Source: Amia ocellicauda (taxonomy: Eukaryota > Chordata > Actinopteri > Amiiformes > Amiidae). From it: a stretch of DNA of 64,000 nucleotides. The stretch is taken from the NCBI RefSeq assembly GCF_036373705.1, contig NW_027102662.1:804109-868108 (forward strand), given 5' to 3'. Both the position numbers and the translations under genes were made by a program. A model generated the notes under the pieces. The model had not been told where the DNA came from and did not search any database. It saw only the letters and a program-made list of their open reading frames with translations. Of this stretch, positions 1 to 64,000 are shown piece after piece (positions within the stretch are counted from its first letter, which is position 1; each line of letters begins with the position of its first letter).

Positions 1-1989
1 ACGAGTTTTTAGGCAAGTCTTCAGATTATTTTCATTGACTCAGAGCGTGTTGTGTGCATGTATTGTAAATAAGGCTATAACATTTGTTTTAAGTTCTGTA
101 AAATTATTTTTCAGCCAGTCAACAGGAGTTAATTCCCAACGCTGAGGAGATCATCTGGAACAACGACGGTAAGATTTTTGTGTTTGCGCTCATGGGTTCT
201 TATGTATGGGTGTGTGTGGTTTTGAAGCGGCTCATTAGAGTTATGAAAACGTTTTAATATATATTAATGCCGGTCTCTTTAATTACACAGAAACTATCGA
301 AAGGCCTGTGATTAATGTCTCGACCAAGAGAAGTGGTTGTCCCTAGACAGGCTGTCTGCCGACCGGGTAAGAACTAAACCCCTGTTTGTTTGTATAACGT
401 TTCTGTAAGATGTTTGAGTCCAGTTTTGTTAATTTTAAAAAAATTATCCTGTCTAACAGTATTAAGAAACGTGGTTCGAGACAACGAAAGGCCTTCCACA
501 TCGAGGGCTTGTTTCGTTTTACCTTCGAGAACCGTAACCTTTCAAGAATCTGAAAGGCTGTCAGCCCCGGTATCTGATAGCTGTGAGTATATGTCTGCAG
601 CCTGTAAGAGGTTAAATCTTTTTATAAAGCGGTGTGGTTAAAGGTTAAACATGTCTCTTACCTTCACAGCGGTGCAAAAAGCTAAACCAGCCGAAAAACA
701 TAAGAAACGATTATTCTGTGGAGGTAAGTAAGATCTTTCAAACTTTAATGTTTTTAAAAGGGCTTTGTTTGCACGTTGAGGGCTAATATTTAAGCGATGG
801 GTGACCGTTTCCTGTAGGGCGGGGGGTTCTGGGAAAGATCTTTAGAAGTCCGGACAGATCTAGGCTTGTTTCTGGGGAACGTGTTTAGAAATGACCGATT
901 GTCGTACCGTCTGGATAGGAAGTAAAGCCGTCCGAAAGGGTTTAGTAAGTTGTTTGGCTTATCTCCCGCTATTATACTTCTGTTTTAAAGTGGTTGTAGG
1001 AAAAGGCTTGAAGGTGTTCATTGTATTTAATATTTAAACAGATCGTGAAAACGTTTGTGAAACAGGAAGTCCCGGGATCAGGAAGCGTTAACACTTGGAA
1101 GGTTCGTTTAAAAATGAAATGTTGTTGTGTGTGTGTGTGTTTTATTAACAATATTACAGTTTTTAAAGAAACATTTAAGAAACAGTTTATTTACAGCGGC
1201 TTCTCTGTTTTACATTTATTATCAAGTCCTAATAAATATATTGTCTGTAAATAATAAGGCGTTGTAGTGAATGTCTAAGGCTATTTTCAAAGGTCTAAAA
1301 AAGCTAAAGGTTTTGAATGTCCTGGACATGTTGTTTTAAGTTTGATTTCTGTCGCCGTTTAAAGATGTAAATGTAATGTATATTTTTATTCTTCCCAAGA
1401 CTCTTCTGTGGATGAGCTATTGAGGACAATTACCCCGTCTAAGTGGGATCAAACATCTTCCCCGGTGACATCACCGAGAGGATCCCCCACGGTGGTCTTG
1501 GAGACCCCCCAACATCTACTCAGGCCACAGCCTTCTGGGGGTAATTCAACACCCCAGATTCAGCCCGCCGCATTGTCGGGCGGAACAAATACAGGCATCC
1601 AACAACCTCAGGGGTCGCCGTCAGTCAGGGCTGACACACCACCCAACGACGGCCTGGTTTCAACATCGTCCCCCCAGACCCGTTTCTTGGCTACAGAAAC
1701 GCTGAACAGTACCCCGCGCTTGGCCAGGGTGTCACCGCAAAGGCCTTCTTGGTCTCCGTCCATGAGTATACGCTCGCTCCCTGCCTCCTTCGACCGAGAT
1801 TTACCGGAGCGACCATCCTTTGAAGCTGAGCCAGGCCACCAGCCCCCGGAGCTACTTACTGAAGGTCGTCATGAGTTGCTACATACTTTGTTACAAAATC
1901 AAAGACTTGTGTTAGTGGGGCAAAACCTGCTGATAGAGAGCCAAAACACCCTTATTAATACCCTTACTAACGAATTGTACTGTATTTAA
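1..1989 (+). pseudogene. six-exon spliced left-end gene, copy 1 (partial, frameshifted)
   Basis: Exon ends inferred from splice signals and frame: exon 1 to 12, exon 2 115-168, exon 3 291-366, exon 4 460-582, exon 5 670-723, exon 6 1400-1989. A possible 60-nt cassette exon is at 1042-1101. Every junction is phase 1. Exon 1 starts outside the window and has a GC donor (AG/GCAAGT). Exon 3 lacks 8 nt present in copies 3 and 4, breaking the frame. Exon 6 lacks 12 nt in frame. The product is not recognised; see copy 4 for its features. Confidence 0.65.
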
Positions 1990-2172
1990 TGTTTTAATAG
2001 ACACAAAACGCCTTACTATTGTGGGTTGTTGGAAAAATAAAAAATAAATTAAAAAATGTCCTGACTTGGTAAAAGAACTCACAAACTAAAGGATTATGAA
2101 CAAGCTAGGGCCCCAAAAAGACCTTCCCGAGAGAACATCCCCGGCCCTGTTGTGAACTCCTCTGATGTCCCA

Positions 2173-2970
2173 ATGAACCTGGAACTATTACAAATGATAA
2201 ATGATTTAAATAACCCCCAATTACCACCGATAGAATGTGAATTAACAGACTTACCGGTGAACCCCGACCTGTTACAGATGGTCAATGATCTAAATAACCA
2301 CCTCCCACCGGTAGCGCTTATAGAGGTTCACCCCCTAGTTCACCCCGATTTGTTTGAAATGGTGGAGGCTTTGGAGGAGCTACCCCTACCAAATTCTGCC
2401 CCTATTATAAATGATTTGAGACAATTAGAACACAGGATGGCGGCAGAAGCAGCCATCACTATAGAGGAGGGTCTTGACATTAACCGGTTGGATATCTTTG
2501 AAGGACTTTTACAGGCTTTAAATGAGCCTACTCAAAAAGGGGGTTTTGTAGATGTCAGCAGTGGGGGTGTTCGGAATGTGGAGGGTTCTGAGACTGATAA
2601 GGCTGTGGAGGACATGCTCTGTGAGAATGTAGGGGGTGAAGGCTTTGTTCAAAATGATGATGTGTCCAAGAGTACCAGTGATCCCGTGATTATAGATAGA
2701 CCGGCCTATAACAATTTTGAAATGATTCAGCGTTTTAATTTTGCAGAACTTTTAAATTGTGACAATTATGCAGAAATATTTGTCAACATACACGAGGCCT
2801 TGCAGAAAATGCTTGAACAGGTTGCTGAAAGGGTCAGACCTCGAGATGTTGTACAGTTAGAACTCAGAGGGGATGATTTGTTTAGCAACCTATCTGTAAT
2901 GCTGAGTGGAGATAATTTAGACGTCTGGCTAAAATCGAAGCGTTATTGCAAAGTAACGCAGCCATCATAG
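2173..2970 (+). CDS. N-terminal polymerase-region ORF, copy 1
   Basis: The frame is open from 2065, but the first ATG is at 2173 (265 aa). The first 90 residues hold three imperfect repeats: NLELLQMINDLNN, NPDLLQMVNDLNN and HPDLFEMVEALEEL. An acidic linker follows, then a helical region. It ends 25 nt inside the downstream polymerase frame. From the known size and N-terminal pattern of Polinton polymerases I infer that this is the detached N-terminal part of pol, separated by a 1-nt shift near 2925-2945 shared by all copies. A separate protein is the alternative. Confidence 0.6.
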   Translation: MNLELLQMINDLNNPQLPPIECELTDLPVNPDLLQMVNDLNNHLPPVALIEVHPLVHPDLFEMVEALEELPLPNSAPIINDLRQLEHRMAAEAAITIEEGLDINRLDIFEGLLQALNEPTQKGGFVDVSSGGVRNVEGSETDKAVEDMLCENVGGEGFVQNDDVSKSTSDPVIIDRPAYNNFEMIQRFNFAELLNCDNYAEIFVNIHEALQKMLEQVAERVRPRDVVQLELRGDDLFSNLSVMLSGDNLDVWLKSKRYCKVTQPS

Positions 2971-5900
2971 CTGATGAAAGTCTGTCTCTGGTAATGAATG
3001 TGGTTCGTAACCCTGAGGGTGGGGCGCTTAGAAGACTGTCGAAATGCTTGAAGAACGACATAATTAGGACCAAGCTCAGGCAATTAGTGGTGAGTTCCAG
3101 TGGGGACAATAAGCTCTGTTTTGCTTACAGTTTAATAAAACTACTCACCCCCGACATGCCTGAACCCCAAGCTCTGCAAGAGGCTTTAATGCTTCATCAG
3201 AGGGCCGGCTTAAACTCTCAACAGATGGTTGCCTTTTCAGACATCACCAAGTTTGAGGAGTTGTTGTCTTTAAAAATTGTTGTGTGGTACCGTTGTGAGG
3301 TAAAGGAAGTATTTGTGAAATTTCAGACACATCCTGAAACCCATACACAGACACTGTTTCTCTTCCTAAGTGATAGTCATTACTTTGGAATAAAGAGTTT
3401 GACGGCTTTTTTGGGTTGTTCGTATGTTTGTCATTGTTGTTATAAGGCCTTCAATGATAAGCTTAAGCACCGCTGTGACGGTTACTGTAACGTCTGATTC
3501 AATCCGCAATGTTGTAAGGGTTTGGCCCCTACCATCCGATGAAAAGATTGCTTAAGGATTTGTCTCTCTGCGTTCTGTTTTTCCGAGCATAAGGTACAGA
3601 GGGCCGCTTCTGAGGGGGTTAAAAAACTGAGTTATTGTGATCAAACTAAATATTGCCCGCAGTGTTGCCTCCAGTACCGTTTTCATGAGGTTAAACCACA
3701 CAAATGTCTGGAGCCGAGATGCAGGATCTGTAATGCTGATTTAACCCCGGGGTCCGAACACCAGTGCTTTATTCAGCCGGTTAAAAAGGAGCCGCCGCAC
3801 AATTATAATTAATTATATACACTGTATTGACATGTTGGATCGTGAGTGGTCAGCTAGCGGTGAGAGTTGTGTCAGGGATTTCTTTACGCGGTATCGCGGT
3901 CCAAAATACCTCAATTACACATTTATTGCCCACAATGCTAAGGGTTATGATTCTTACATTTTGATGAAGTATCTGGTGGAAAATGGGGTGACCCCAAAAA
4001 TAATAGCTCAGGGTAGCAAGATCATGTGTTTCACCGACGAAGCTTTCAACTAACGTTACATAGACTCGTTAAATTTCCTCCCCATGAAATTGAGCGCTTT
4101 GCCTAAGGCTCTGGGTTTTGAGGCTCAGAAGAAAGGTTGGTTCTGCCATTTTTTTAATACTAAGGACACTCAAAATTATCGAGGGTCCTACCCGCCCGCC
4201 TCTTATTATGGGGTTGTTACTATGATGTCTCATGAGAGGGAGGAATTCTTTAAATGGTACAATACGGTTAAGGGAGGTGTTTTTGATTTCCGAGAAGAGA
4301 TGGCCGCTTATTGTAAAAATGATGTGGTGATCCTTAAAGAAGCCTGTGTGCGTTTCTGCGCCGAGGTTATCAACACATCGGGTCTCGACCCTTTGCAAAG
4401 TGTGACCATAGCGTCTCTCTGCATGAAAATGTATCGGTCCAATTTCTTGCAGAAAAACACTATAGCGGTCACCACTTCTGACAACTATCGTGCTAGACAA
4501 AAGAACTTTTCGACTGTCTCCATACAGTGGCTGGAATACCTGAGTGCCCGGGATAACATCTTCATCAGACATGCTTTAAATCAAGGGGAAGTCAAAAGCC
4601 TTACTACTTAGACGGTTTTAGCGACGTGTTCGGGCGGCGTACCGCTTATGAGTTTGCTGGTTGTATTTACCATGGCTGTCCTCAGTGCTTCGACCCAAAC
4701 ACCTTTAACCCCGTAACACAAAAACTCTGCGGTGATATGTACTATGATTTCCAGGAACGAATTGAAACTTTAAAAAACACCTATGGTTTGAACGTGCTGG
4801 TGATTTGGGAACACGAGTGGACGACCCTGAAGCAACAGGATGCGGGGGTACAACGGTTTATGGAAACCTTGGACTTTCCTGAACGTCTAGAGCCCCGGGA
4901 TGCGTTATTTGGGGGTCGTACCAACGCCCTCTGTTTACATTATGAGGTAAAGGAGGGTGAGAGAGTAGATTACTATGATTTCACCAGTCTGTACCCTTAT
5001 GTCAACAAGACCAAAATGTACCCGGTGGGGCGTCCAACCATTGTTTATCGTGACTTTCTCGAAATCGGACATTACTTTGGTTTGATCAAAGTCACCATGT
5101 ACCCTCCTCGCGAGCTGTTCTTACACGTGTTGCCTTACAGTTGTTCGGGAAAATTGATGTTCCCTCTGTGTAGAACGTGTGTGGAAACTGAAAATCAAAC
5201 TACCTCTTGTCTGCACAGTGATGAAGAGAGAGCGCTGACGGGTGTCTGGTGTAGCATTGAGCTTGACAAGGCGGTGGAGAAAGGTTACAGAGTCGGTAAG
5301 GTGTATGAGGTTTGGCATTTTTCTGAAAAACCTGATACTCTTTTTGCTGATTACATTATGACCCATCTGAAAGGGAAACAGGAGGCATCGGGCTATCCCT
5401 CATGGTGTGTTGACTCCGCGGCCAAAGAGCGATATGTTCAGCAATATTTTGAAAAGGAAGGGATCTGTCTAGAGCTGGGGAACATAACTGTAAACCCCGC
5501 CAAGAGACAAATGTCCAAACTGATTTTAAACAGTCTGTGGGGTAAGTTTGGGGAAAGAAATTACCGTCTAAACACAACCTTGATTAAAACCCCTAAACAG
5601 TTTATAGAATTTATGTTTACCAAACAACATGCAGTATCACACTTTCAATTCTTAAATGACCACGTGGCACAGGTCCAGTGGAGGGCCCCTAAAGATTTCC
5701 CCACCAAACAGGGGAACGTTAATGTTTTCATAGCGGTTTTTACCACGGCTTACGCCCAGCTTGAACTGTACAACTTAATGGATCAGTTGCAGGAACGCAC
5801 GCTCTATCAAGATACTGACTCTGTAATCTTTGTCACCAGGCCAGGGGATTGGGTCCCTCCCCTCGGGGACTACCTTGGGGAGTTAACGAGTGAACTAGAT

Positions 5901-6233
5901 CCTCAGGACCACATAGTGGAGTTTGTTTCAGGGGGTCCTAAGACTTACGCATACAGAACGGCTGCGGGTAAGACCTGTATGAAAGTTAAGGGTTTCACTC
6001 TGAACCACTGTAACATCAAGCTCATTAACATCAAGTCTCTGACGACCCTGGTAGAAAGTTTTTTAACCGAGAAAGACGCGCCTCCTCGTGAGATTATTAC
6101 AGCCGGAAATCAGATCTATCGCAATAAAAAGGGGTACACGTTGTAAAATAGATCACTAAACAAATGGTTCAGGGTGGTGTACAATAAAAGAGTGTTGAAG
6201 ACTGATTATACCACTCTGCCTTATGGATATTAG
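2946..6233 (+). pseudogene. polB: protein-primed family B DNA polymerase, copy 1 (heavily broken)
   Basis: Catalytic motifs are readable: motif A (DFTSLYP, near 4978), motif B (K..LILNSLWGKFGER, near 5515) and motif C (DTDS, near 5812). The N-terminal part is Cys-rich, as in Polinton polymerases. Lesions: TGA in place of Tyr/Cys-region codons at 3495 and 3539, a ~47-nt deletion at about 3805 removing the Exo I motif, the shared TAA at 4051-4053, a 4-nt deletion near 4593, and a TAA at 6144-6146 that removes the last ~29 codons. The end overlaps the ATPase start by 11 bp. It would replicate the element in the nucleus. Confidence 0.9.
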
Positions 6234-6894
6234 CGGTGGTTTTGATAACAGACTTCAACACCCTTTCTCCTGTATTATAGCCGGTCCCTCCAATTCGGGG
6301 AAGAGCTATCTTATAAAGAACATCATAGAAGATGTGGACGCAACCGTGTCCCAAGCTCTTGACAACATAGTGTGGTGTTACTCTTGCTGGCAACCTCTCT
6401 ACGATGATTTGGCTTCGAAAAAAAATAATCTGAAATTTGTGCAAGGTCTCCCCGCCTCGTTGTGTGACGATGACTTGTTCCCGCCCGGTCAAACTAATCT
6501 AGTGATCCTTGATGACCTGATGGAGCAGGCCGGTGACAACAGTGAAGTGGAAAAAGCTTTCACAAAGTACACTCATCATAGGAATTTAAGTATTATTTAT
6601 TTAGTTCAAAATCTATTTTTTCAAGGTAAAAAAAGCCGCACTATTAATTTAAATGCCAATGATATAATTCTTTTTAAAAACCCCAGAGATAAACTACAGG
6701 TCACCGTCGTGGCTCGTCAAATGTACCCTAACCAGACCAAGTTCTTTTTGGAGGCATTTGAGGATGCCACCAAAAAACCCTACGGGTACTTGATTGCGGA
6801 CTTAAAAGCACAAACCCCAGAAGACTTTCGCCTCAGAACAGGTTTGTGCCCGCCCGATTGGCCGGCAGTGTATGTGCTAAAGAAAAGGAAATAA
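6223..6894 (+). CDS. FtsK/HerA-type packaging ATPase, copy 1
   Basis: 223 aa, starting at the ATG that overlaps the polymerase stop. Walker A is GPSNSGKS at residues 21-28, and Walker B is LVILDD at about 93-98. It belongs to the A32-like DNA-packaging ATPases of Polintons and related viruses, which pump DNA into preformed capsids. Open and full length. It differs from the other copies at NLNANDI (elsewhere NLYANYI). Confidence 0.9.
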   Translation: MDISGGFDNRLQHPFSCIIAGPSNSGKSYLIKNIIEDVDATVSQALDNIVWCYSCWQPLYDDLASKKNNLKFVQGLPASLCDDDLFPPGQTNLVILDDLMEQAGDNSEVEKAFTKYTHHRNLSIIYLVQNLFFQGKKSRTINLNANDIILFKNPRDKLQVTVVARQMYPNQTKFFLEAFEDATKKPYGYLIADLKAQTPEDFRLRTGLCPPDWPAVYVLKKRK

Positions 6895-6900
6895 ATAAGA

Positions 6901-7236
6901 ATGTCTGTTCGGATTAAAAGAAATCTGCCGCTTTTGCAAATGTTATTTGAGGGGAGCCCGCGCCATAGGAAAGCTGTGCTGGCAGGGGCCCCCTCGGATT
7001 TGATCGAGACCCTGTGTGAAATAGCTTTTAACATCTTACGCGGTAATATACCCCTAACCCCTTCTCAACATTCTAAACTCAAAAAACAAAAAGCGGTTAT
7101 CAAGATCATCGCTAATAAGAAGTATTCTATTAAAAGAAAAAGAAAGAAGATTAATCAAACCGGGGGTTTTATAGTACCGCTGTTGAGCATAGCCGTGCCT
7201 TTCCTAACCAGTCTTCTAGCTTCCAGAGTGGGTTAA
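6901..7236 (+). CDS. 111-aa basic protein with hydrophobic C-terminus, copy 1
   Basis: Starts 6 bp after the ATPase stop. Residues ~25-55 form a helical conserved-looking region (LIETLCEIAFNILRGNIPL). A basic stretch KRKRKK at ~80-86 is followed by a Gly-Gly turn and a hydrophobic tail (PLLSIAVPFLTSLL). Similar small ORFs occur beside the ATPase in Mavericks (from memory). A membrane-active or DNA-binding virion peptide is possible by analogy with small adenovirus core proteins; function not established. It is open in all four copies. Confidence 0.75.
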   Translation: MSVRIKRNLPLLQMLFEGSPRHRKAVLAGAPSDLIETLCEIAFNILRGNIPLTPSQHSKLKKQKAVIKIIANKKYSIKRKRKKINQTGGFIVPLLSIAVPFLTSLLASRVG

Positions 7237-7238
7237 TA

Positions 7239-7982
7239 ATGGAATATCCTCAGAAAATGTTTTTGATCCCTCAGGAGCAGCTTGAGAAACTGAGAAAAAA
7301 TGTTTTCGGGCCAGAGCCCATTAGACAAACGGCCGAAAACAACCTGAACTCTGAAATGAAAGCTATACAGGCCAGGGCCGATTTAAATCAGTATTCCAAA
7401 GCCCAGTTGTATACCAACACTTTACAGCGCTACCTCCGTCTGGTTAGACAGGGTGAAAAAGATCAAAACATTTTAACTTTAACCATGGCCTCTCAAGAAA
7501 ATGGTTCTGGGGCTGATGCGGGAGGTACGGTTGATAAAGATGTTGCGGTGACCGAACCTGTTGAGAGTTCAGAGGGAGGTGTTGTAACGGATGTTTTGAG
7601 AAACATGCCGGCCAGAAGCAAAAGACATGCAGAATATATCCTGCACAAAATGGTTCAGAAACCGCGGGTAACGGCTTGGAATGAACAGGGTGAATTTGTT
7701 TTTAAAGGACAACTGATCAAAGGTTCACACATGTTTGATTTGTTGAAGAGTGTCACTAGCACTAATAAGGTACCCGATAGTCGCCGACCTGTAGGCTGGA
7801 ATGCTTTCCTACAGGCGATGGCCTGTCTGAACATGCCCCAATCCACAGTTCCTAACCAGGAAACGCGACAAAAAATCCGTCTGTGTAAAGAGGTGGAGCC
7901 TGATCTGACTCCGATATCTCATTACTCTGACCGTGCTGAGCGACCATCCTCAGGATCTATCCATCGTTGGGAAGCTTTTTAA
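7239..7982 (+). CDS. 247-aa uncharacterised Maverick protein, copy 1
   Basis: Begins 2 bp after the 111-aa gene. The N-terminal ~80 residues are helical and charged (QEQLEKLRKNV.., AQLYTNTLQRYLRLVRQGEKD). A Gly/Asp/Glu-rich linker follows. A C-terminal domain at ~145-210 includes TAWNEQGEFVFKG, SHMFDLLKSV and GWNAFLQAMACLNMP. I recall the same C-terminal pattern in other Maverick-linked ORFs but know no function. Last gene of the rightward block. Confidence 0.75.
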   Translation: MEYPQKMFLIPQEQLEKLRKNVFGPEPIRQTAENNLNSEMKAIQARADLNQYSKAQLYTNTLQRYLRLVRQGEKDQNILTLTMASQENGSGADAGGTVDKDVAVTEPVESSEGGVVTDVLRNMPARSKRHAEYILHKMVQKPRVTAWNEQGEFVFKGQLIKGSHMFDLLKSVTSTNKVPDSRRPVGWNAFLQAMACLNMPQSTVPNQETRQKIRLCKEVEPDLTPISHYSDRAERPSSGSIHRWEAF

Positions 7983-8162
7983 TCTCATGTTTTTATTTGT
8001 CTCCCCTGTAAATAATGACCCGACAAACAATTTTTTTTTTTATTTATTTATTTTTCAAATGTTGTACATTTATTTATAACATAACCCCTGCTTTGTATAA
8101 GAATTGTATTGAATAAAAACAAAAACTAATGATTCAAAGGCTGTTTTCATTATTTTTTCACC
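7983..8162. terminator. convergent poly(A) region, copy 1
   Basis: Lies between the ends of the rightward and leftward genes. AATAAA at 8112-8117 serves the plus strand, and TTTATT motifs (AATAAA on the minus strand) serve the leftward transcripts. A T-rich tract at about 8030-8052 varies in length between copies. Confidence 0.6.
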
Positions 8163-8735
8163 TTAACACGCATGACATCTTTTAAAATCCTCACAAGAAC
8201 ACCCCATCTGTATACATGGCTGGCCAGGGTCGTAAGTCATTGTGTTATAAGGGGGGGTCCACAGTGTCCTGACAAACTCTGCCACTTTTTTATCATTTTG
8301 GCCTAAATCCTCACTGTACAAGGCCATAATATCGGGGTATGACCTTCCATTAGATCTATGATATAAGAAAAACACACAGTGTTGACCACAAGTGAAGGTC
8401 TGAAGACTTTGTACTTGACGACCGCTGTAAATGGTTTCTTGACAGTTGTTGAGCAGAAAGTTATTGATCTTCCGAGGGAAAGGTCTGAAATCCGGGGGGT
8501 TTGCATAGGAATCAAAAAATTCACCACGGTGGTCCTCCCTTAGATAAATAGCCAGCCAATGTTCTCCGGGCATGTTTTTAGGGTATGTGTTGATTATGTA
8601 CATTGCAGGTAAATTCTTGATCTTAAATTTAGGCAGCTGATCGCAGGCGTAGACTCCTTGAAACAGTTTCCGTGAGCCGGCCAGGGCATTCATGATGTGG
8701 TTGAGCTCTCTGGTGTTCATTTTAATAATAATCAT
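8163..8735 (-). CDS. adenain-like cysteine protease, copy 1
   Basis: 190 aa from the first ATG; a second ATG is 5 codons in. Catalytic elements of the adenovirus protease/Ulp1 fold are visible: His in GEHWLAIYL (~59), Asp in EFFDSYA (~75), Gln ~112 and Cys in TCGQHC (~116). It would process capsid precursors during maturation. The first ATG lies inside the major capsid gene (14-bp overlap). It ends in a Cys-rich tail (CSCEDFKRCHAC). Confidence 0.9.
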   Translation of the reverse strand: MIIIKMNTRELNHIMNALAGSRKLFQGVYACDQLPKFKIKNLPAMYIINTYPKNMPGEHWLAIYLREDHRGEFFDSYANPPDFRPFPRKINNFLLNNCQETIYSGRQVQSLQTFTCGQHCVFFLYHRSNGRSYPDIMALYSEDLGQNDKKVAEFVRTLWTPPYNTMTYDPGQPCIQMGCSCEDFKRCHAC

Positions 8736-10029
8736 ACAGAACGTTTCTCCTCTGATTCACCTCAATAATGTTGTCAAACACAGCATACACGACCATATTT
8801 ACAGTGCGTGGTAGAGGCTGCTTGAAACGCATCTCCAAACGCATATTGCCCGTCTTCATCAGTGAAAAATGTTGTCCACACTCTTCGTCAGGGGTCAGGT
8901 TGAAACCGTACAAGGTGTAACCGCTGCAGTATTCCCGGCGATCGATCAGTAGAGTTTGATCCTTGAGATGGCGACCCGTGGCCAGTACTAGACTGTAATA
9001 TTCACGAACCGCATTGCCGTTTTCAAAGTCAGCTTGAAAAGGTCTGGATGGAACCTGCACACCATCGACGTACAACGCTATAAATTCCGCATTATAATCT
9101 TTAAAGTTAAAGGGGTTCTTGTTGTAAACCCCGGTAAATGCATCATTATCCATGAGGCCTATAATAACCTGTTTTGGGAGCTGTCCTAGAAACAGATTCT
9201 CCTGGTTCATCACCCGTGTCCCTGCGGGGATTCTGTGGACTTTCATATAGACTCTTTCGATCGGGTACTCGGCGTTTGCCGTCATTAACGCCTGCGCGTG
9301 TCCTAGTTTAACCGCCGGGGAGACGGACACTTTTTTCACAAACAGCGAGGCCGATAATATGGTCAGTTTATATTTTTCAGTATCAGGGGTCATCAGACAA
9401 AAAGCACTTTTACTACGGATCATTTTAATTTTAATGTCTACCCCGTTGAGCATGAGTTTTTCTTGGAAAAATATGTCTGCATGGATATGCCCCATTAGCT
9501 CAAAGGTCCTCCCTTCTGTTGAAGAGGCCGTTCTTTTTTGCAAACCCTTATTGAGTCCCTCTGGATCCTTGTCGTCCATAGCTTCCGGGATGTCTTTGAA
9601 GAAAAGGCCGGGGCTGAACTGTTTGCTTAGGGTCTCCTCACTATAATTAAGTATACACTCCATCATGGCTCTATAGGGGTAAGTATTGCTGCTTTGACTA
9701 ATGAGCCGATCTCCCAGGGTCACATCCACCTGTGAAAACATGGTGGCCACCGGGTAATTGATGACCCCAGCGTTGGTCGTCTTCTCGATTGCATCGCCAT
9801 CCTCATCAGTCACTTTACAGTTCATTAAAATAAATGTGTTATTCAAATCAATATAATCCTCGCCATTGCCAGCTATAAAAAACTCCAGAGGGGCCGTGTC
9901 TGAAATTGCAGAAAGAGGGGGAATCTCTACATATATGCTCTTATCTATACTCGTTTGAGTGTGTGGAACTGTAAACAGATCCAGTTCTGATTTGACGCAT
10001 TCTTCCGATAGACTGTGGAAAAAAGACAT
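8722..10029 (-). CDS. major capsid protein (hexon-like, double jelly-roll), copy 1
   Basis: 435 aa, with the length and pattern of Polinton/adintovirus major capsid proteins. The N-terminal region reads ...KSIYVEIPPLSAIS, and later come FIAGNGEDYIDLNNT and a conserved C-terminal LYGFNLTPDE and NMRLEMRFKQPL. Such proteins form trimeric capsomers of an icosahedral shell. The start lies 2 bp after the core-protein frame. No disabling change seen. Confidence 0.88.
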   Translation of the reverse strand: MSFFHSLSEECVKSELDLFTVPHTQTSIDKSIYVEIPPLSAISDTAPLEFFIAGNGEDYIDLNNTFILMNCKVTDEDGDAIEKTTNAGVINYPVATMFSQVDVTLGDRLISQSSNTYPYRAMMECILNYSEETLSKQFSPGLFFKDIPEAMDDKDPEGLNKGLQKRTASSTEGRTFELMGHIHADIFFQEKLMLNGVDIKIKMIRSKSAFCLMTPDTEKYKLTILSASLFVKKVSVSPAVKLGHAQALMTANAEYPIERVYMKVHRIPAGTRVMNQENLFLGQLPKQVIIGLMDNDAFTGVYNKNPFNFKDYNAEFIALYVDGVQVPSRPFQADFENGNAVREYYSLVLATGRHLKDQTLLIDRREYCSGYTLYGFNLTPDEECGQHFSLMKTGNMRLEMRFKQPLPRTVNMVVYAVFDNIIEVNQRRNVLYDYY

Positions 10030-10031
10030 GT

Positions 10032-10521: not shown

Positions 10522-10522
10522 T

Positions 10523-11251: not shown

Positions 11252-11297
11252 CTTGAGAATCGAAAGTAATGCCCCCAACACACCCGCGGGCATGTTG

Positions 11298-54025: not shown

Positions 54026-54098
54026 GTTTCTGTAGTTTAGTGGCTATCACGTTTGCCTCACACGCGAAAGGTCCCTGGTTTGAAACCGGGCGGAAACA
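54026..54098 (+). tRNA. tRNA-Val(CAC)-like, array C unit 2, degenerate, next to copy 4
   Basis: Anticodon loop CTCACAC is kept, but the acceptor reads GTTTCTG, the D arm has TAGTTTAG, and the B box has TTTGAAA. Copy 4's CTTATG site begins 226 nt downstream. Confidence 0.55.
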
Positions 54099-54323
54099 AC
54101 CCGCGGTGCACGCGTGCCAGTGCCGTGTTACCTGTCCCCATCTCTCTGCCCCAAGGCTGGATGTCGTTTTCTCTTCCTCGGAGTGGCAAGAAATCCTGAC
54201 CTTGAGAACAAACGATCACAGAAGGGTAGCTTTGCGAGGCGCAGGAACTGACACTTTTAAAATCGATACATGTTGTTGCTGTTACAATACGACCGTAGCA
54301 GGATCGGCGACATTGCTGTTACT

Positions 54324-54329
54324 CTTATG
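54324..54329. repeat. target site duplication, left of copy 4 (CTTATG)
   Basis: CTTATG directly precedes the left TIR of copy 4, in the same repeat context as 17879-17884. Confidence 0.9.
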
Positions 54330-54514
54330 AGTAGATAGTAGGGTTTTTTGGGCGCGGCCTATTTTGTTATGACGTATGCCCTAAGCTTATTAATATTCCT
54401 ACGTCATAATTGGGGGGCGTGATTTTAGGTAGAGTTATATCCTTAATTATTCCTACGTCATATCCGTCAGAAAGTGTACACCCATAAAACCCTGAACAAC
54501 AAGGCCGCCCATAA
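54330..54514 (+). repeat. left terminal inverted repeat of copy 4
   Basis: Nearly identical to 17885-18069, with the same three ACGTCA/TGACGT hexamers. Its right partner would lie beyond the window. Confidence 0.93.
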
Positions 54515-55707
54515 CCTGTTGTTCTTGTTGTTCTTGTTGGTCAACTGTAGAGTGTGAATGGGTCGGCTCTTCCTGTAGTGGTTGGGGGTCTTTTTTAAAT
54601 ATACATGTAATGGTTTAGTAAATCTAAACCGTTATAAGATCAACAAGTTCTGTTGTCTGTAATGGTCCCAGGTCTTAACAATGCCAGTTTTGAATAGTGC
54701 GTTTATCATATTCACACTGTCTCTGTCTGTCTCTCTCTCTATCTCGCCCAATCATTTTATAAGATTAACAAGTTCTGTTGTCTGTTATGATCCCAGGTCC
54801 TATCAATGCCTGTTTTGCATAGGGTATTTATGTTATCCACACTGTATCTGGCTCTGTCTCTCCCCTCAAATTTAATTAAAAATAAAATTAAAAAAGAGGG
54901 TGTGTGTGTGGGTGTTTGTGTGTATAGGTTAATTGTTTTTGTAAAAAAAAAAAAAAAAAGCTGTGGTTATATTTTATCTCTCACATAATGTGTTCAGTCG
55001 TTTTACTTAAATACATTCTAGGGTCTTAAAGCTCATAAGAGTTAGACTTAAGATAAGGATATGCTTTTAAGGTATTTTAGCAGTCTCAATCCCTGATGAT
55101 AAGGAATCGTTTAAAAAATAAAAACAACTGATCACTCAATGCTAAATAGATCACAACACTCAAGGCTAAATCACTCACACCATGGGGGGCGGGGGTGGGC
55201 TCAGACAACAGTAGGTATGGCGTGTGGTATCAAAACATTCAGAATACTTTTAACCTATATAATTCATAAGCTTTGTAAAGTAAACCCAAATATCTCTTTT
55301 GCGGGGATAAACTCTGTTCTGAGTAGTTTGTGACTTGTTTAATACCAAACAAAGCATCGCTATTAAAAAAAAAAAAAAAAAATCACTGTAAAAGCGCTAG
55401 TTATTTTAGATCTTTATGGTTATTTTCTTGGCTCAGGTTGTTTTTTAGCGCTTATAAAGGCCTAAAATATTCTTAGTGGTTGTTGACTATAGGTCTTGAT
55501 GCTTAAAAATGTTTTTTTGAGAGACCAAAAGGTTCTAATAAAAGTTTAGAGTAGAGAGGAGAGAGATCGTCTCCATCTTGGTTTCTATTTGAAATTTGAT
55601 GCAGTGTCATTTTATTGGTTGGTTTTGATATGTTAATTGGTAACAGGGCGGCACAAAGGCCAGACCAGAACAATGCCTTACAAGAAGATCCGGCATGTGG
55701 ACATCAG
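54515..55707. other. left non-coding region of copy 4
   Basis: Equivalent to 18070-19258: hairpin at 54612-54630, two-copy ~125-bp repeat, TG-rich tract, poly(A) tracts near 54943 and 55366, and ATTGG boxes. No gene seen. Confidence 0.65.
54634..54868 (+). repeat. two-copy ~125-bp direct repeat, copy 4
   Basis: Units begin at 54634 and 54759, matching the pair in copy 2. Confidence 0.7.
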
Positions 55708-55713
55708 TATAAG
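55708..55713 (+). promoter_or_regulatory. TATA box of spliced gene, copy 4
   Basis: TATAAG 73 bp upstream of the degenerate start codon at 55781. Confidence 0.5.
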
Positions 55714-55780
55714 TATGAAGGTCTGGTCTTCAGCTCGACAGACTCATACTGACCTTTCGATTTAAGACTAAAGATCAACA

Positions 55781-57822
55781 GTGTCCGGAAACAACATCTG
55801 CGACTTCGATTTAAACGAGTTTTTTGGTAAGTCTTCAGATTATTTTCACTGACTCAGAGCGTGTTGTGTGCATGTATTGTAAATAAGGCTATAACATCTG
55901 TTTTAAGTTCTGTAAAATTATTTTTCAGCCAGTCAACAGGAGTTAATTCCCAACGCTGAGGAGATCATCTGGAACAACAACGGTAAGATTTTTGTGTTTG
56001 CGCTCATGGGTTCTTATGTATGGGTGTGTGTGGTTTTGAAGCGGCTCATTAGAGTTATGAAAACGTTTTAATACATATTAATGCCGGTCTCTTTAATTAC
56101 ACAGAAACTATCGAAAGGCCTGTGATTAATGTCTCCGAGGATCGACCAAGAGAAGTGGTTGTCCCTAGACAGGCTGTCTGCCGACCGGGTAAGAACTAAA
56201 CCCCTGTTTGTTTGTATAACGTTTCTGTAAGATGTTTGAGTCCAGTTTTGTTAATTTTAAAAAATTATCCTGTCTAACAGTATTAAGAAACGTGGTTCGA
56301 GACAACGAAAGGCCTTCCACATCAAGGGCTTGTTTCGTTTTACCTTCGAGAACCGTAACCTTTCAAGAATCTGAAAGGCCGTCAGCCCCGGTATCTGATA
56401 GCTGTGAGTATATATCTGCAGCCTGTAAGAGGTTAAAGCTTTTTATAAAGCGGTGTGGTTAAAGGTTAAACATGTCTCTTACCTTCACAGCGGTGCAAAA
56501 AGCTAAACCAGCCGAAAAACTTAAGAAACGATTATTCTGTGGAGGTAAGTAAGATCTTTCAAACTTTAATGTTTTTAAAAGGGCTTTGTTTGCCCGTTGA
56601 GGGCTAATATTTAAGCGATGGGTGCCCGTTTCCTGTAGGGCGGGGGGTTCTGGGAAAGATCTTTAGAAGTCCGGACAGGTCTAGGCTTGTTTCTGGGGAA
56701 CGTGTTTAGAAATGACCGATTGCCGTACCGTCTGGTTAGGAAGTAAAGCCGTCCGAAAGGGTTTAGTAAGTTGTTTGGCTTATCTCCCGCTATTATACTT
56801 CTGTTTTAAAGTGGTTGTAGGAAAAGGCTTGAAGGTGTTCATTGTATTTAATATTTAAACAGATCGTGAAAACGTTTGTGAAACAGGAAGTCCCGGGATC
56901 AGGAAGCGTTTACACTTGGAAGGTTCGTTTAAAAATGAAATGTTGTTGTGTGTGTGTGTGTTTTATTAACAATATTACAGTTTTTAAAGAAACATTTAAG
57001 AAACAGTTTATTTACAGTGGCTTCTCTGTTTTACATTTATTATCAAGTCCTAATAAATATATTGTCTGTAAATAATAAGGCGTTGTAGTGAATGTCTAAG
57101 GCTATTTTCAAAGGTCTAAAAAAGCTAAAGGTTTTGAATGTCCTGGACATGTTGTTTTAAGTTTGATTTCTGTCGCCGTTTAAAGATGTAAATGTAATGT
57201 ATATTTTTATTCTTCCCAAGACTCTTGGGATAGTCATTCTGTGGATGAGCTATTGAGGACAATTACCCCGTCTAAGTGGGATCAAACATCTTCCCCGGTG
57301 AGATCACCGAGAGGATCCCCCACGGTGGTCTTGGAGACCCCCCAACATCTACTCAGGCCACAGCCTTCTGGGGGTAATTCAACACCCCAGATTCAGCCCG
57401 CCGCATTGTCGGGCGGAACAAATACAGGCATCCAACAACCTCAGGGGTCGCCGTCAGTCAGGGCGGTCACACCACCCAACGACGGCCTGGTTTCAACATC
57501 GTCCCCCCAGACCCGTTTCTTGGCTACAGAAACGCGGAACAGTACCCCGCGCTTGGCCAGGGTGTCACCGCAAAGGCCTTCTTGGTCTCCGTCCATGAGT
57601 ATACGCTCGCTCCCTGCCTCCTTCGACCGAGATTTACCGGAGCGACCATCCTTTGAAGCTGAGCCAGGCCACCAGCCCCCGGAGCTACTTCCTGAAAGTC
57701 GCCATGAGTTGCTACATACTTTGTTACAAAATCAAAGACTTGTGTTAGTGGGGCAAAACCTGGTGATAGAGAGCCAAAACACCCTTATTAATACCCTTAC
57801 TAACGAATTGTACCGTATTTAA
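55781..57822 (+). CDS. six-exon spliced left-end gene, copy 4 (start codon GTG)
   Basis: Exons: 55781-55826, 55929-55982, 56105-56188, 56281-56403, 56491-56544 and 57221-57822. Together they would encode about 320 residues, or 340 with the optional 60-nt exon. All junctions are phase 1, and intron 1 has a canonical GTAAGT donor here. The start is GTG where copies 2 and 3 have ATG, so initiation is doubtful. The long last exon is rich in Ser, Pro and Thr and ends in a Leu-rich helix (HELLHTLLQNQRLVLVGQNL). An LxCxD motif spans the exon 5/6 junction. Position at the element end beside a TATA box suggests an early regulatory protein; no known family recognised. Confidence 0.65.
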
Positions 57823-58005
57823 TGTTTTAATAGACACAAAACGCCTTACTATTGTGGGTTGTTGGAAAAATAAAAAATAAATTAAAAAATGTCCTGACTT
57901 GGTAAAAGAACTCACAAACTAAAGGATTATGAACAAGCTAGGGCCCCAAAAAGACCTTCCCGAGAGAACATCCCCGGCCCTGTTGTGAACTCCTCTGATG
58001 TCCCA

Positions 58006-58789
58006 ATGAACCTGGAACTATTACAAATGATAAATGATTTAAATAACCCCCAATTACCACCGATAGAATGTGAATTAACAGACTTACCGGTGAACCCCGA
58101 CCTGTTACAGATGGTCAATGATCTAAATAACCACCTCCCACCGGTAGCGCTTATAGAGGTTCACCCCCTAGTTCACCCCGATTTGTTTGAAATGGTGGAG
58201 GCTTTGGAGGAGCTACCCCAACCAAATTCTGCCCCTTTTATAAATGATTTGAGACAATTAGAACACAGGATGGCGGCAGAAGCAGCCATCACTATAGAGG
58301 AGGGTCTTGGATATCTTTGAAGGACTTTTACAGGCTTTAAATGAGCCTCCTCAAAAAGGGGGTTTTGTAGATGTCAGCAGTGGGGGTGTTCGGAATGTGG
58401 AGGGTTCTGAGACTGATAAGGCTGTGGAGGACATGCTCTGTGAGAATGTAGGGGGTGAAGGCTTTGTTCAAAATGATGATGTGTCCAAGAGTACCAGTGA
58501 TCCCGTGATTATAGATAGACCGGCCTATAACAATTTTGAAATGATTCAGCGTTTTAATTTTGCAGAACTTTTAAATTGTGACAATTATGCAGAAATATTT
58601 GTCAACATACACGAGGCCTTGCAGAAAATGCTTGAACAGGTTGCTGAAAGGGTCAGACCTCGAGATGTTGTACAGTTAGAACTCAGAGGGGATGATTTGT
58701 TTAGCAACCTATCTGTAATGCTGAGTGGAGATAATTTAGACGTCTGGCTAAAATCGAAGCGTTATTGCAAAGTAACGCAGCCATCATAG
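58006..58789 (+). pseudogene. N-terminal polymerase-region ORF, copy 4 (14-nt deletion)
   Basis: A 14-nt deletion at about 58310, between two TTG trinucleotides, shifts the frame in the middle. The first ~105 codons and the C-terminal 160 codons are otherwise like copy 1. Confidence 0.75.
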
Positions 58790-61700
58790 CTGATGAAAGT
58801 CTGTCTCTGGTAATGAATGTGGTTCGTAACCCTGAGGGTGGGGCGCTTAGAAGACTGTCGAAATGCTTGAAGAACGACATAATTAGGACCAAGCTCAGGC
58901 AATTAGTGGTGAGTTCCAGTGGGGACAATAAGCTCTGTTTTGCTTACAGTTTAATAAAACTACTCACCCCCGACATGCCTGAACCCCAAGCTCTGCAAGA
59001 AGCTTTAATGCTTCATCAGAGGGCCGGCTTAAACTCTCAACAGATGGTTGCCTTTTCAGACATCACCAAGTTTGAGGAGTTGTTGTCTTTAAAAATTGTT
59101 GTGTGGTACCGTTGTGAGGTAAAGGAAGTATTTGTGAAATTTCAGACACATCCTGAAACCCATACACAGACACTGTTTCTCTTCCTAAGTGATAGTCATT
59201 ACTTTGGAATAAAGAGTTTGACGGCTTTTTTGGGTTGTTCGTATGTTTGTCATTGGTGTTATAAGGCCTTCAATGATAAGCTTAAGCACCGCTGTGACGG
59301 TTACTGTAACGTCTGTTTCAATCCGCAATGTCGTAAGGGTTTGGCCCCTACCATCCGATGTAAAGATTGCTTAAGGATTTGTCTCTCAGCGTTCTGTTTT
59401 TCCGAGCATAAGGTACAGAGGGCCGCTGCTGAGGGGGTTAAAAAACGGAGTTATTGTGATCAAACTAAATATTGCCCGCAGTGTTGCCTCCAGTACCGTT
59501 TTCATGAGGTTAAACCACACAAATGTCTGGAGCCGAGATGCAGGATCTGTAATGCTGATTTAACCCCGGGGTCCGAACACCAGTGCTTTATTCAGCCGGT
59601 TAAAAAGGAGCCGCCGCACAACCGGTATGTCTTTTTTGCTTTTGAATGCCGGCAAGAAAACGGGGTCCACGTTGCTAATTATATACTCTGTATTGACATG
59701 TTGGATAGTGAGTGGTCAGCTAGCGGTGAGAGTTGTGTCAGGGATTTCTTTACGCGGTATCGCGGTCCAAAATACCTCAATTACACATTTATTGCCCACA
59801 ATGCTAAGGGTTATGATTCTTACATTTTGATGAAGTATCTGGTGGAAAATGGGGTGACCCCAAAAATAATAGCTCAGGGTAGCAAGATCATGTGTTTCAC
59901 CGACGAAGCTTTCAACTAACGTTACATAGACTCGTTAAATTTCATCCCCATGAAATTGAGCGCTTTGCCTAAGGCTCTGGGTTTTGAGGCTCAGAAGAAA
60001 GGTTGGTTCTGCCATTTTTTTAATACTATGGACACTCAAAATTATCGAGGGTCCTACCTGCCCGCCACTTATTATGGGGTTGATACTATGATGTCTCATG
60101 AGAGGGAGGAATTCTTTAAATGGTACAATACGGTTAAGGGAGGTGTTTTTGATGACCGAGAAGAGATGGCTGCTTATTGTAAAAATGATGTGGTGATCCT
60201 TAAAGAAGCCTGTGTGCGTTTCCGCGCCGAGGTTATCAACACATCGGGTCTCGACCCTTTGCAAAGTGTGACCATAGCGTCTCTCTGCATGAAAATGTAT
60301 CGGTCCAATTTCTTGCAGAAAAACACTATAGCGGTCACCACTTCTGACAACTATCGTGCTAGACAAAAGAACTTTTCGACTGTCTCCATACAGTGGCTGG
60401 AATACCTGAGTGCCCGGGATAACATCTTCATCAGACATGCTTTAAATCAAGGGGAAGTCAAAATGGGGCCTTACTACTTAGACGGTTTTAGCGACGTGTC
60501 CGGGCGGCGTACCGCTTATGAGTTTGCAGGTTGTATTTACCATGGCTGTCCTCAGTGCTTCGACCCAAACACCTTTAACCCCGTAACACAAAAACTCTGC
60601 AGTGATATGTACTATGATTTCCAGGAACGAATTGAAACTTTAAAAAACACCTATGGTTTGAACGTGCTGGTGATTTGGGAACACGAGTGGACGACCCTGA
60701 AGCAACAGGATGCGGGGGTACAACGGTTTATGGAAACCTTGGACTTTTCTGAACGTCTTGAGCCCCGGGATGCGTTATTTGGGGGTCGTACCAACGCCCT
60801 CTGTTTACATTATGAGGTAAAGGAGGGTGAGAGAGTAGATTACTATGATTTCACCAGTCTGTACCCTTATGTCAACAAGACCAAAATGTACCCGGTGGGG
60901 CGTCCAACCATTGTTTATCGTGACTTTCTCGAAATCGGACATTACTTTGGTTTGATCAAAGTCACCATGTACCCTCCTCGCGAGCTGTTCTTACCCATGT
61001 TGCCTTACAGGTGTTCGGGAAAATTGATGTTCCCTCTGTGTAGAACGTGTGTGGAAACTGAAAATCAAACTACCTCTTGTCTGCACAGTGATGAAGAGAG
61101 AGCGCTGACGGGTGTCTGGTGTAGCATTGAGCTTGACAAGGCGGTGGAGAAAGGTTACAGAGTCGGTAAGGTGTATGAGGTTTGGCATTTTTCTGAAAAA
61201 TCTGATACTCTTTTTGCTGATTACATTATGACCCATCTGAAAGGGAAACAGGAGGCATCGGGCTATCCCTCATGGTGTGTTGACTCCGCGGCCAAAGAGC
61301 GATACGTTTAGCAATATTTTGAAAAGGAAGGGATCCGTCTAGAGCTGGGGAACATAACTGTAAACCCCGCCAAGAGACAAATGTCCAAACTGATTTTAAA
61401 CAGTCTGTGGGGTAAGTTTGGGGAAAGAAATTACCGTCTAAACACAACCTTGATTAAAACCCCTGAACTGTTCATAGAATTTATGTTTTCCAAACAACAT
61501 GCAGTATCACACTTTCAATTCTTAAATGACCACGTGGCACAGGTCCAGTGGAGGGCCCCTAAAGATTTCCCCACCAAACAGGGGAACGTTAATGTTTTCA
61601 TAGCGGTTTTTACCACGGCTTACGCCCGGCTTGAACTGTACAACTTAATGGATCAGTTGCAGGAACGCACGCTCTATCATGATACTGACTCTGTAATCTT

Positions 61701-62103
61701 TGTCACCAGGCCAGGGGATTGGGTCCCTCCCCTCGGGGACTACCTTGGGGAGTTAACGAGCGAACTAGATCCTCAGGACCACATAGTGGAGTTTGTTTCA
61801 GGGGGTCCTAAGACTTACGCATACAGAACGGCTGCGGGTAAGACCTGTATGAAAGTTAAGGGTTTCACTCTGAACCATTGTAACAACAAGCTCATTAACA
61901 TCAAGTCTCTGACGACCCTGGTAGAAAGTTTTGTAACCGAGAAAGACGCGCCTCCTCGTGAGATTATTACAGCCGGAAATCAGATCTATCGCAATAAAAA
62001 GGGGTACACGTTGGAAAATAGATCACTAAACAAACGGTTCAGGGTGGTGTACAATAAAAGAGTGTTGAAGACTGATTATACCACTCTGCCTTATGGATAT
62101 TAG
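58765..62103 (+). pseudogene. polB: protein-primed family B DNA polymerase, copy 4 (least broken)
   Basis: The Cys-rich N-terminus, Exo II, Exo III and all three palm motifs are open apart from the shared TAA at 59917-59919 and a private TAG at 61309-61311. Exo I reads FAFE (Asp to Ala). The final ~240 codons run open to the natural stop overlapping the ATPase start. This is the best copy for aligning the family. Confidence 0.9.
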
Positions 62104-62764
62104 CGGTGGTTTTGAAAACAGACTTCAACACCCTTTCTCCTGTATTATAGCCGGTCCCTCCAATTCGGGGAAGAGCTATCTTATAAAGAACATCATAGAA
62201 GATGTGGACGCAACCGTGTCCCAAGCTCTTGACAACATAGTGTGGTGTTTCTCTTGCTGGCAACCTCTCTACGATGATTTGGCTTCGAAAAAAAATAATC
62301 TGAAATTTGTGCAAGGTCTCCCCGCCTCGTTGTGTGACGATGACTTGTTCCCGCCCGGTAATACTAACCTAGTGATCCTTGATGACCTGATGGAGCAGGC
62401 CGGTGACAACAGTGAAGTGGAAAAAGCTTTCACAAAGTACACTCATCATAGGAATTTAAGTATTATTTATTTAGTTCAAAATCTATTTTTTCAAGGTAAA
62501 AAAAGCCGCACTATTAATTTATATGCCAATTATATAATTCTTTTTAAAAACCCCAGAGATAAACTACAGGTCACCGTCTTGGCTCGTCAAATGTACCCTA
62601 ACCAGACCAAGTTCTTTTTGGAGGCATTTGAGGATGCCACCAAAAAACCCTACGGGTACTTGATTGCGGAATTAAATGCACAAACCCCAGAAGACTTTCC
62701 CCTAAGAACAGGTTTGTGCCCGCACGATTGGCCGGCAGTCTATGTGCTAAAGAAAAGGAAATAA
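62093..62764 (+). CDS. packaging ATPase, copy 4
   Basis: Open, 223 aa, Walker A GPSNSGKS and Walker B LVILDD intact. A few substitutions occur near the C-terminus (for example Arg to Pro in EDFPL). Confidence 0.9.
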   Translation: MDISGGFENRLQHPFSCIIAGPSNSGKSYLIKNIIEDVDATVSQALDNIVWCFSCWQPLYDDLASKKNNLKFVQGLPASLCDDDLFPPGNTNLVILDDLMEQAGDNSEVEKAFTKYTHHRNLSIIYLVQNLFFQGKKSRTINLYANYIILFKNPRDKLQVTVLARQMYPNQTKFFLEAFEDATKKPYGYLIAELNAQTPEDFPLRTGLCPHDWPAVYVLKKRK

Positions 62765-62770
62765 ATAAGA

Positions 62771-63106
62771 ATGTCTGTTCGGATTAAAAGAAATCTGCCG
62801 CTTTTGCAAATGTTATTTGAGAGGAGCCCGCGCCATAGGAAAGCTGTGCTGGCAGGGGCCCCCTCGGATTTGATCGAGACCCTGTGTGAAATAGCTTTTA
62901 ACATCTTACGCGGTAATATACCCCTAACCCCTTCTCAACATTCTAAACTCAAAAAACAAAAAGCGGTTATCAAGATCATCGCTAATAAGAAGTATTCTAT
63001 TAAAAGAAAAAGAAAGAAGATTAATCAAACCGGGGGTTTTATAGGACCGCTGTTGAGCATAGCCGTGCCTTTCCTAACCAGTCTTCTAGCTTCCAGAGTG
63101 GGTTAA
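62771..63106 (+). CDS. 111-aa basic/hydrophobic protein, copy 4
   Basis: Open; FERSP and IGP variants as in copy 2. Confidence 0.75.
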   Translation: MSVRIKRNLPLLQMLFERSPRHRKAVLAGAPSDLIETLCEIAFNILRGNIPLTPSQHSKLKKQKAVIKIIANKKYSIKRKRKKINQTGGFIGPLLSIAVPFLTSLLASRVG

Positions 63107-63108
63107 TA

Positions 63109-63687
63109 ATGGAATATGCTCAGAAAATGTTTTTGATCCCTCAGGAGCAGCTTGAGAAACTGAGAAAAAATGTTGTCGGGCCAGAGCCCATTAGACAAAC
63201 GGCCGAAAACAACCTGGACTCTGAAATGAAAGCTATACAGGCCAGGGCCGATTTAAATCAGTATTCCAAAGCCCAGTTGTATACCAACACGTTACAGCGC
63301 TACCTCCGTCTGGTTAGACAGGGTGAAAAAGATCAAAACATTTTAACTTTAACCATGGCCTCTCAAGAAAATGGTTCTGGGGCTGATGCGGGGGGAACGG
63401 TTGATAAAGATGTTGCGGTGATCAAAGGTTCACACATGTTTGATTTGTTGAAGAGTGTCACTAGCACTAATAAGGTACCCGATAGTCGCCGACCTGTAGG
63501 CTGGAATGCTTTCCTACAGGCGATGGCCTGTCTGAACATGCCCCAATCAACAGTTCCTAACCAGGAAACGCGACAAAAAATCCGTCTGTGTAAAGAGGTG
63601 GAGCCTGATCTGACTCCGATATCTCATTACTCTGACCATGCTGAGCGACCATCCTCAGGATCTATCCATTGTTGGGAAGCTTATTAA
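63109..63687 (+). CDS. 247-aa protein, copy 4 (in-frame 165-bp deletion, 192 aa)
   Basis: The linker between the N-terminal helices and the C-terminal domain is deleted in frame, with a shared TGA at the breakpoint (63418-63421). The start, first 104 residues and C-terminal domain from IKGSHMF onward remain. Whether the short form would work is unknown. Confidence 0.7.
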   Translation: MEYAQKMFLIPQEQLEKLRKNVVGPEPIRQTAENNLDSEMKAIQARADLNQYSKAQLYTNTLQRYLRLVRQGEKDQNILTLTMASQENGSGADAGGTVDKDVAVIKGSHMFDLLKSVTSTNKVPDSRRPVGWNAFLQAMACLNMPQSTVPNQETRQKIRLCKEVEPDLTPISHYSDHAERPSSGSIHCWEAY

Positions 63688-63866
63688 TCTCATGTTTTTA
63701 TTTGTCTCCCCTGTAAATAATGACCCGACAAACAATTTTTTATTTTTATTTTTTATTTTTCAAATGTTGTACATTTATTTATACCATAACCCCTGCTTTG
63801 TATAAGAATTGTGTTGAATAAAAACAAAACTAATGATTCAAAGGCTGTTTTCATTATTTTTTCACC
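63688..63866. terminator. convergent poly(A) region, copy 4
   Basis: Same arrangement as copy 2: TTTATT motifs and a plus-strand AATAAA near 63817. Confidence 0.6.
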
Positions 63867-64000
63867 TTAACACGCATGACATCTTTTAAAATCCTCACAA
63901 GAACACCCCATCTGTATACACGGCTGGCTAGGGTCGTAAGTCATTGTGTTATAGGGGGGGGTCCACAGTGTCCTGACAAACTCTGCCACTTTTTTATCAT
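63867..64000 (-). CDS. adenain-like cysteine protease, copy 4 (C-terminal part only)
   Basis: The last ~44 codons are inside the window and open; the catalytic region lies beyond it. Confidence 0.85.
   Translation of the reverse strand, partial: DKKVAEFVRTLWTPPYNTMTYDPSQPCIQMGCSCEDFKRCHAC

Follow-up and report, generated by a model that had tools for sequence, protein, structure and literature searches.

Introduction

Intact vertebrate Mavericks are 12.7-24.6 kb long and have a reported 6-bp end motif, (AGT)2 or (AG)3, according to the available part of the survey describing them (PMC8097293). Here we analyse a 64,000-nucleotide stretch of the Amia ocellicauda genome (contig NW_027102662.1, positions 804,109 to 868,108; "the window"), in which four copies of such an element, E1 to E4, alternate with arrays of valine-type tRNA genes. 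The element is a Maverick/Polinton of the vertebrate type. It has the gene order of the adintovirus-like Mavericks/Polintons in that part of the survey, in two modules facing the centre, and resembles them in its length of 16.2 kb, its inverted ends, its 6-bp target-site duplication and its AGT-type end. It differs in its end motif, AGTAGA here and (AGT)2 there, and in standing as four tandem copies inside a tRNA array, for which the same text describes no counterpart; neither a site preference nor tandem Mavericks are mentioned in it. A word search of PMC9683012 found no wording on target site, tRNA, tandem or duplication. Among the best-ranked papers of a literature search, no title or opening of an abstract concerned Mavericks in tRNA arrays.

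Dada DNA transposons belong to an element class unrelated to Mavericks. In fish they target multicopy small RNA genes, some families choosing tRNA-Val, and in the Dada-tV cases given in the accessible text the insertion lies in the anticodon arm of the tRNA (PMC8869645, PMC3706591 for the targeting; PMC8869645 for the arm). As far as those excerpts go, the Amia locus is similar in that multicopy tRNA loci of a fish, including tRNA-Val, carry the insertions. It is unlike them in the position of the site, which lies not in the anticodon arm but downstream of the tRNA, at a distance of 217-226 bp at all seven loci with anticodon CAC, and in that our data speak more for amplification than for targeting. 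Where unequal exchange and conversion act on tandem gene arrays, such as ribosomal DNA (rDNA), the units vary in number and type, and recent unit duplications and mosaics occur. The tRNA arrays described here show the same variation, recent duplications and mosaics, but they carry a 16-kb virus-like element in the repeat. We argue that the locus most likely goes back to a single Maverick insertion, after which the tRNA units underwent unequal exchange and conversion with one another.

Results

Four Mavericks at one site of a tRNA unit

Self-comparison of the window, whose sequence contains no N, gave four Maverick copies, all in the same orientation, alternating with three tRNA arrays (Table 1). 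Long matches between copies had 97.6-98.4% BLAST identity. The sequence-only reading had proposed just this arrangement of near-identical elements of about 16 kb, together with one CTTATG site at every preserved element end, and both proposals held. The array is cut by the window at both ends, where E1 and E4 are incomplete; E2 is the complete copy. Its inverted ends match over about 185 bp (the BLAST match of 189 bp includes 4 bases of the target-site duplication). It begins with AGTAGATAGTAGGG and finishes with the complement of AGTAGATAGTAGGG, with CTTATG flanking both sides. The end motif AGTAGA, which has five of the six letters of (AGT)2, is found at the left of E2 and E4, and its complement at the right of E2 and E3. 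The right end of E1 and the left end of E3 are deletion junctions, not original element ends; from the overlaps of 4 and 2 bases read from the junction alignment, these losses look like ordinary end-joining deletions.

CTTATG adjoins all four preserved ends (E2 left, E2 right, E3 right and E4 left) and occurs without an element in five further units, with similar sequence on both sides. The elements are therefore insertions into the tRNA unit. A 75-bp stretch ending in CTTATG, and so bordering the insertion site, is identical in all seven units that have it (starts at 14908, 16174, 17810, 35615, 36577, 53287 and 54255), though the units vary elsewhere; the longest invariant run before CTTATG is 69 columns (permutation P 0.0006). 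Two stretches of array 2, 34879-35689 and 35841-36651, are identical at 808 of 811 positions (99.6%), and a unit was therefore duplicated recently within this array.

The three arrays together hold ten Val-type tRNA loci, scoring 37.7-64.1 Rfam bits. ARAGORN detects eight of the ten, and a whole-window Rfam search at the gathering score only three. ARAGORN reads seven anticodons as CAC and one as ACC; two more were read by eye from the alignment as AAC. The predicted tRNA-Val cluster is thus present, but it is mainly, not purely, Val-CAC, because of the ACC and the two AAC loci. The tRNA at 34371-34443 is of Val type with anticodon ACC, and ARAGORN labels it tRNA-Gly; judged from its anticodon, it could misread Gly codons if expressed.

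Table 1. Positions in the window of the element copies, their ends and flanks, the tRNA arrays and selected open reading frames (ORFs).
Feature	Positions	Strand	Remarks
Maverick copy E1	1..14484	+	left side beyond window, right end deleted; 4-bp overlap with tRNA unit at junction
Maverick copy E2	17885..34054	+	both ends present, 16,170 bp, complete
Maverick copy E3	37016..52584	+	left ~870 bp deleted, right end present
Maverick copy E4	54330..64000	+	left end present, right side beyond window
E2 left terminal inverted repeat	17885..18069	+	
E2 right terminal inverted repeat	33870..34054	-	
Target-site duplication CTTATG, left of E2	17879..17884	+	
Target-site duplication CTTATG, right of E2	34055..34060	+	
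tRNA array 1	14481..17884	+	five tRNA loci: 14678, 15944, 17589 (CAC); 15326, 16956 (read as AAC); empty CTTATG at 14977, 16243
tRNA array 2	34055..37020	+	tRNA loci 34371 (ACC), 35386, 36348 (CAC); empty CTTATG at 35684, 36646
tRNA array 3	52585..54329	+	tRNA loci 53058, 54026 (CAC); empty CTTATG at 53356; CTTATG at both element borders
75-bp stretch ending in CTTATG	54255..54329	+	one of seven identical unit copies
Right-flank variant of E1	14485..14626	+	18-bp insertion and 13 substitutions common only to E2 right flank
Right-flank variant of E2	34175..34316	+	matches variant of E1
pPolB ORF piece, E4	59920..61308	+	downstream of stop common to all four copies; PF03175 found on neighbouring E3 and E4 pieces
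Packaging ATPase ORF, E4	62069..62764	+	Pox_A32 resemblance, below family cut-off
Integrase ORF, E3	48979..50094	-	rve core and chromodomain; open in E3
Putative minor capsid gene, E3	48224..49049	-	named by gene order; broken in all three copies
Major capsid ORF, E3	46400..47704	-	435 codons; named by gene order and homologues; frame open past usual end in E3
Adenovirus-type protease ORF, E3	45841..46431	-	Peptidase_C5

A shared polymerase stop and few other shared lesions

The left module, on the plus strand, comprises pPolB, the ATPase and then an ORF at the PZ position. The right module, on the minus strand, comprises the integrase with its chromodomain, the putative minor capsid gene, an ORF at the PW position, the major capsid gene and the protease. 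No copy is intact, the core ORFs never all being open in one copy. pPolB is broken in all four by one common stop codon (the first codon past it is at 4054, 23478, 41741 and 59920), with further breaks in single copies. The major capsid ORF is open in all three copies that have it, as is the protease, which the window cuts in E4. The ATPase is open in two of four copies, and each of the other two has its own different stop; the PZ-position ORF is full-length in two, shortened without a stop in E4 and broken in E3. One stop in the integrase, open in one of three copies, is common to E1 and E2, and the same two copies share a break in the PW-position ORF, also open in one of three. A frame change at one and the same place breaks the putative minor capsid gene of E2 and E3; in E1 the break is a different one.

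Integrity was judged against outside references for pPolB and the two capsid genes and against a copy from the window for the other genes, in which a lesion present in every copy could therefore go unnoticed. Within the limits of these comparisons, the ancestor of all copies would have carried one pPolB break and few others. An already dead ancestor with shared inactivating lesions had been proposed. What stands is the single stop in every copy; the other breaks are confined to single copies or fall into conflicting pairs, and with the major capsid and protease ORFs open in three of three copies "already dead" is too strong. We had also considered the stop itself as proof of a dead ancestor, and this was weakened by three relatives (P0121, P0127 and P0151) that begin at or next to the first methionine after it, so that some lineages may have a split polymerase gene. 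Four others (P0122, P0123, P0128 and P0130), by contrast, run through the place unbroken.

In the major capsid gene (8725-10029, 28149-29453 and 46400-47704) the changes found in single copies are 17 synonymous and 21 nonsynonymous, against 28.2 nonsynonymous expected. The P value for this synonymous excess, 0.0086, is uncorrected for the four genes tested, and the other three look neutral (P 0.65-0.72). Pairwise ratios of nonsynonymous to synonymous rates across seven genes were 0.27-0.34 for the capsid gene and 0.42 to 1.16 for the other pairs, one pair having no synonymous changes. We rejected selection on the capsid gene as proof of function: four genes were tested, the other three looked neutral, and the rate that is raised is the synonymous one.

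Relations among the copies

Substitution divergence was calculated on the pieces compared, with too-short matches and the last 170 bp of the element left out. It is 1.19-1.49% for all six pairs of copies, with 170/14080 differences between E1 and E2 and 112/9419 between E2 and E4. E1 and E2 are closest near the right end of the element, where the last compared piece has 0/547 differences, against 11/828 for E1 and E3. The region common to the four copies has 182 variable sites, of which 166 set off a single copy and 13 separate the four into two pairs (6/6/1 over the three possible splits); another set of pieces gave 15 such sites, split 8/6/1. Three gaps are shared, two of them dividing E1 and E2 from E3 and E4 and one dividing E1 and E3 from E2 and E4.

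Along the element, the changes private to E3 fall into clusters (0 of 2000 shuffles reached this extreme; P 0.013 for E1 and 0.24 for E2), and the shared breaks conflict, the PW-position ORF and integrase pairing E1 with E2 and the minor capsid gene pairing E2 with E3. The copies therefore look like mosaics from conversion or exchange, and on these patterns sequence exchange seems to have taken place between them.

Flanks of the copies

The right flanks of E1 and E2 have in common a variant, spread over a 142-bp segment before the tRNA, that consists of an 18-bp insertion and 13 substitutions and is absent from the other eight of the ten stretches compared. The two versions differ at 3/142 positions, and each differs from the other eight at 16-19/124. 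The difference of 3/142 is not far from the divergence of the E1 and E2 elements themselves. Past this stretch the E1 flank is of the CAC-unit type, like the neighbouring unit, and the E2 flank is of the other tRNA type, as crossovers within units would give. Such a pattern is expected if a single insertion was duplicated along with the unit to its right and recombination later took place inside that unit. The right flank of E3 is kept for only 44 bp and is uninformative.

Left flanks are preserved only for E2 and E4.

Discussion

A probable history of one insertion and unequal exchange

All four copies lie in the same orientation, every preserved end meets the same site, E2 retains the target-site duplication, the rare right-flank variant links E1 and E2, the copies are related as mosaics, and array 2 contains a recent duplication. 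Together with the pPolB stop, the common site and orientation, the variant and the mosaics favour one insertion plus unequal exchange, and the closeness of E1 and E2 near the right end of the element points the same way. A Maverick would have entered a tandem array a single time, generating a 6-bp target-site duplication some 220 bp downstream of a tRNA-Val gene. Since the tRNA units to the left and right of the element resemble each other, they could then have been misaligned, and exchange between them would have multiplied the Maverick as a passenger. Each copy would have acquired its mosaic of flanks and lesions through crossovers in the units beside it, conversion from one copy to another and small deletions by end joining. 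We infer that unequal exchange was the amplifying step and that E3 and E4 also descend from the single founding insertion. This history, in all likelihood the right one, requires no new property of the element and leaves the state of the left flanks to later exchange in the array.

Several observations weigh against this history. The copies are nearly star-like, and do not form the nested tree of stepwise duplication. The left flanks of E2 and E4 differ at 47/773 positions (93.9% identity), which exceeds the divergence of the two elements. Without CpG sites the comparison is 21/522 in the flanks against 86/8789 in the elements, and when one divergent patch is also removed it is 11/485 against 86/8789 (Fisher P 0.017). 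The two flanks sit in different unit types and are not grouped in a tree of units, support in which is weak throughout. One site joins them to each other, two join the E4 flank to the unit at 16243 and two the E2 flank to the unit at 53356; their last 165 bp have too few variable sites to decide. Apart from the one site joining E2 and E4, the flanks show no link of E3 or E4 with the duplication of E1 and E2.

We considered taking the left-flank divergence as evidence against co-amplification, but it shrank once CpG sites and the patch were removed, and we keep it as a counter-indication only. Given the mismatch, exchange must have replaced the left flanks unless E4 inserted separately. Amplification of the element with its tRNA flanks, as first proposed from the sequence, is thus partly supported, by the right flanks of E1 and E2, by the common site and orientation and by the pPolB stop, but finds no such match in the left flanks of E2 and E4, which cannot simply have travelled with the elements.

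Alternative histories

The copies might instead be independent integrations, if the integrase of this Maverick lineage favours one set position, some 220 bp downstream of tRNA-Val genes, and several units were hit separately from one source. The single exact hexamer at four of four preserved ends is what such a preference would give, and the left flanks of E2 and E4, of different unit types and as diverged as units generally, fit it too. Star-like copies fit a common source. Independent integration does not explain why a rare right-flank variant is common to E1 and E2, why all four copies point the same way or why all four have the pPolB stop, unless the mobilised source was a defective master acting with help in trans. 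The synonymous excess in the major capsid gene also speaks for independent integration, though its P value is uncorrected and the other three genes tested look neutral. The integrase does have a chromodomain, and targeting of tRNA genes is known for other DNA transposons, namely Dada, in the accessible text of PMC8869645; the available portion of the vertebrate Maverick survey mentions no target preference (PMC8097293), and a survey of polinton-like viruses of cryptophytes reports, in the part available, that insertions lack tRNA genes within 1 kb (PMC12220804). Taken together, we consider independent integration unlikely. By analogy with Dada, or with R2 in rDNA, one could picture a lineage of Mavericks whose chromodomain integrase directs it to one fixed site downstream of tRNA-Val genes, so that the array becomes a safe haven and unequal exchange spreads it further, but this picture too seems unlikely.

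A mixed history, with E1 and E2 related by duplication and E3, E4 or both inserted separately at the same site, would accommodate the disagreement between the left flanks of E2 and E4 and the fact that the strong flank evidence concerns E1 and E2 only. It needs two processes to act at one hexamer, while the shared stop and orientation span all four copies, and we regard it as very improbable. Mis-assembly, in which a single element and its allele were joined into an artificial tandem, is barely credible even though 16-kb repeats at 98% identity are hard to assemble. All six pairs are 1.2-1.5% apart over the pieces compared, whereas at least two of the four copies should be nearly identical if they came from two haplotypes of one locus; each copy has deletions or junctions of its own, and the window is free of gaps.

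If one insertion and unequal exchange is the right history, a large endogenous DNA virus has a second route of multiplication, as the passenger of a tandem tRNA array and not by its own replication. Genomic counts of Mavericks, and dates based on the divergence of copies, would then partly measure host recombination. As the 16-kb insert marks the units that carry it, the locus lends itself naturally to tests of unequal exchange. Copies at the same site elsewhere would instead mean target-site choice, in a group for which the sources, as far as available, list no cases.

Gene assignments

pPolB is a family B DNA polymerase of the viral/organellar type (PF03175, E 1.4e-27 on an E3 piece). An E4 piece has 468 homologues, and among the 120 listed are the "PolB-C" proteins of two adintoviruses. 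The integrase matches rve (E 7.1e-12) and the chromodomain (E 2.6e-8), and the protease matches PF00770 (E 4.7e-5; 23.6 bits against a cut-off of 21.3). The ATPase reaches only 20.1 bits with Pox_A32, under the cut-off of 22.8; its place in the gene order is consistent with a packaging ATPase.

Pfam gave no name to the capsid, PW-position and PZ-position ORFs, and no homologue listed for the major capsid ORF is called a capsid protein; in this element these labels follow from gene order. Searches of viral contigs with the integrase and major capsid queries found no relative, searches of the same contigs with the tRNA, unit and inverted-end patterns found no match, and the tRNA-unit pattern had no match in bacterial and archaeal contigs. 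The major capsid ORF has 1652 homologues, and among the 120 listed the best with a species name is an "F54H12.2-like" protein of Hoplias, at 66% identity. The top four species-named matches among those listed are from three ray-finned fish and a lizard (Hoplias, Erpetoichthys, Brachyhypopomus and Anolis), at 63-66% identity.

Near the left end of the element a 125-bp unit is repeated 1.8 times, at 18187-18417 in E2 and at 54632-54862 in E4.

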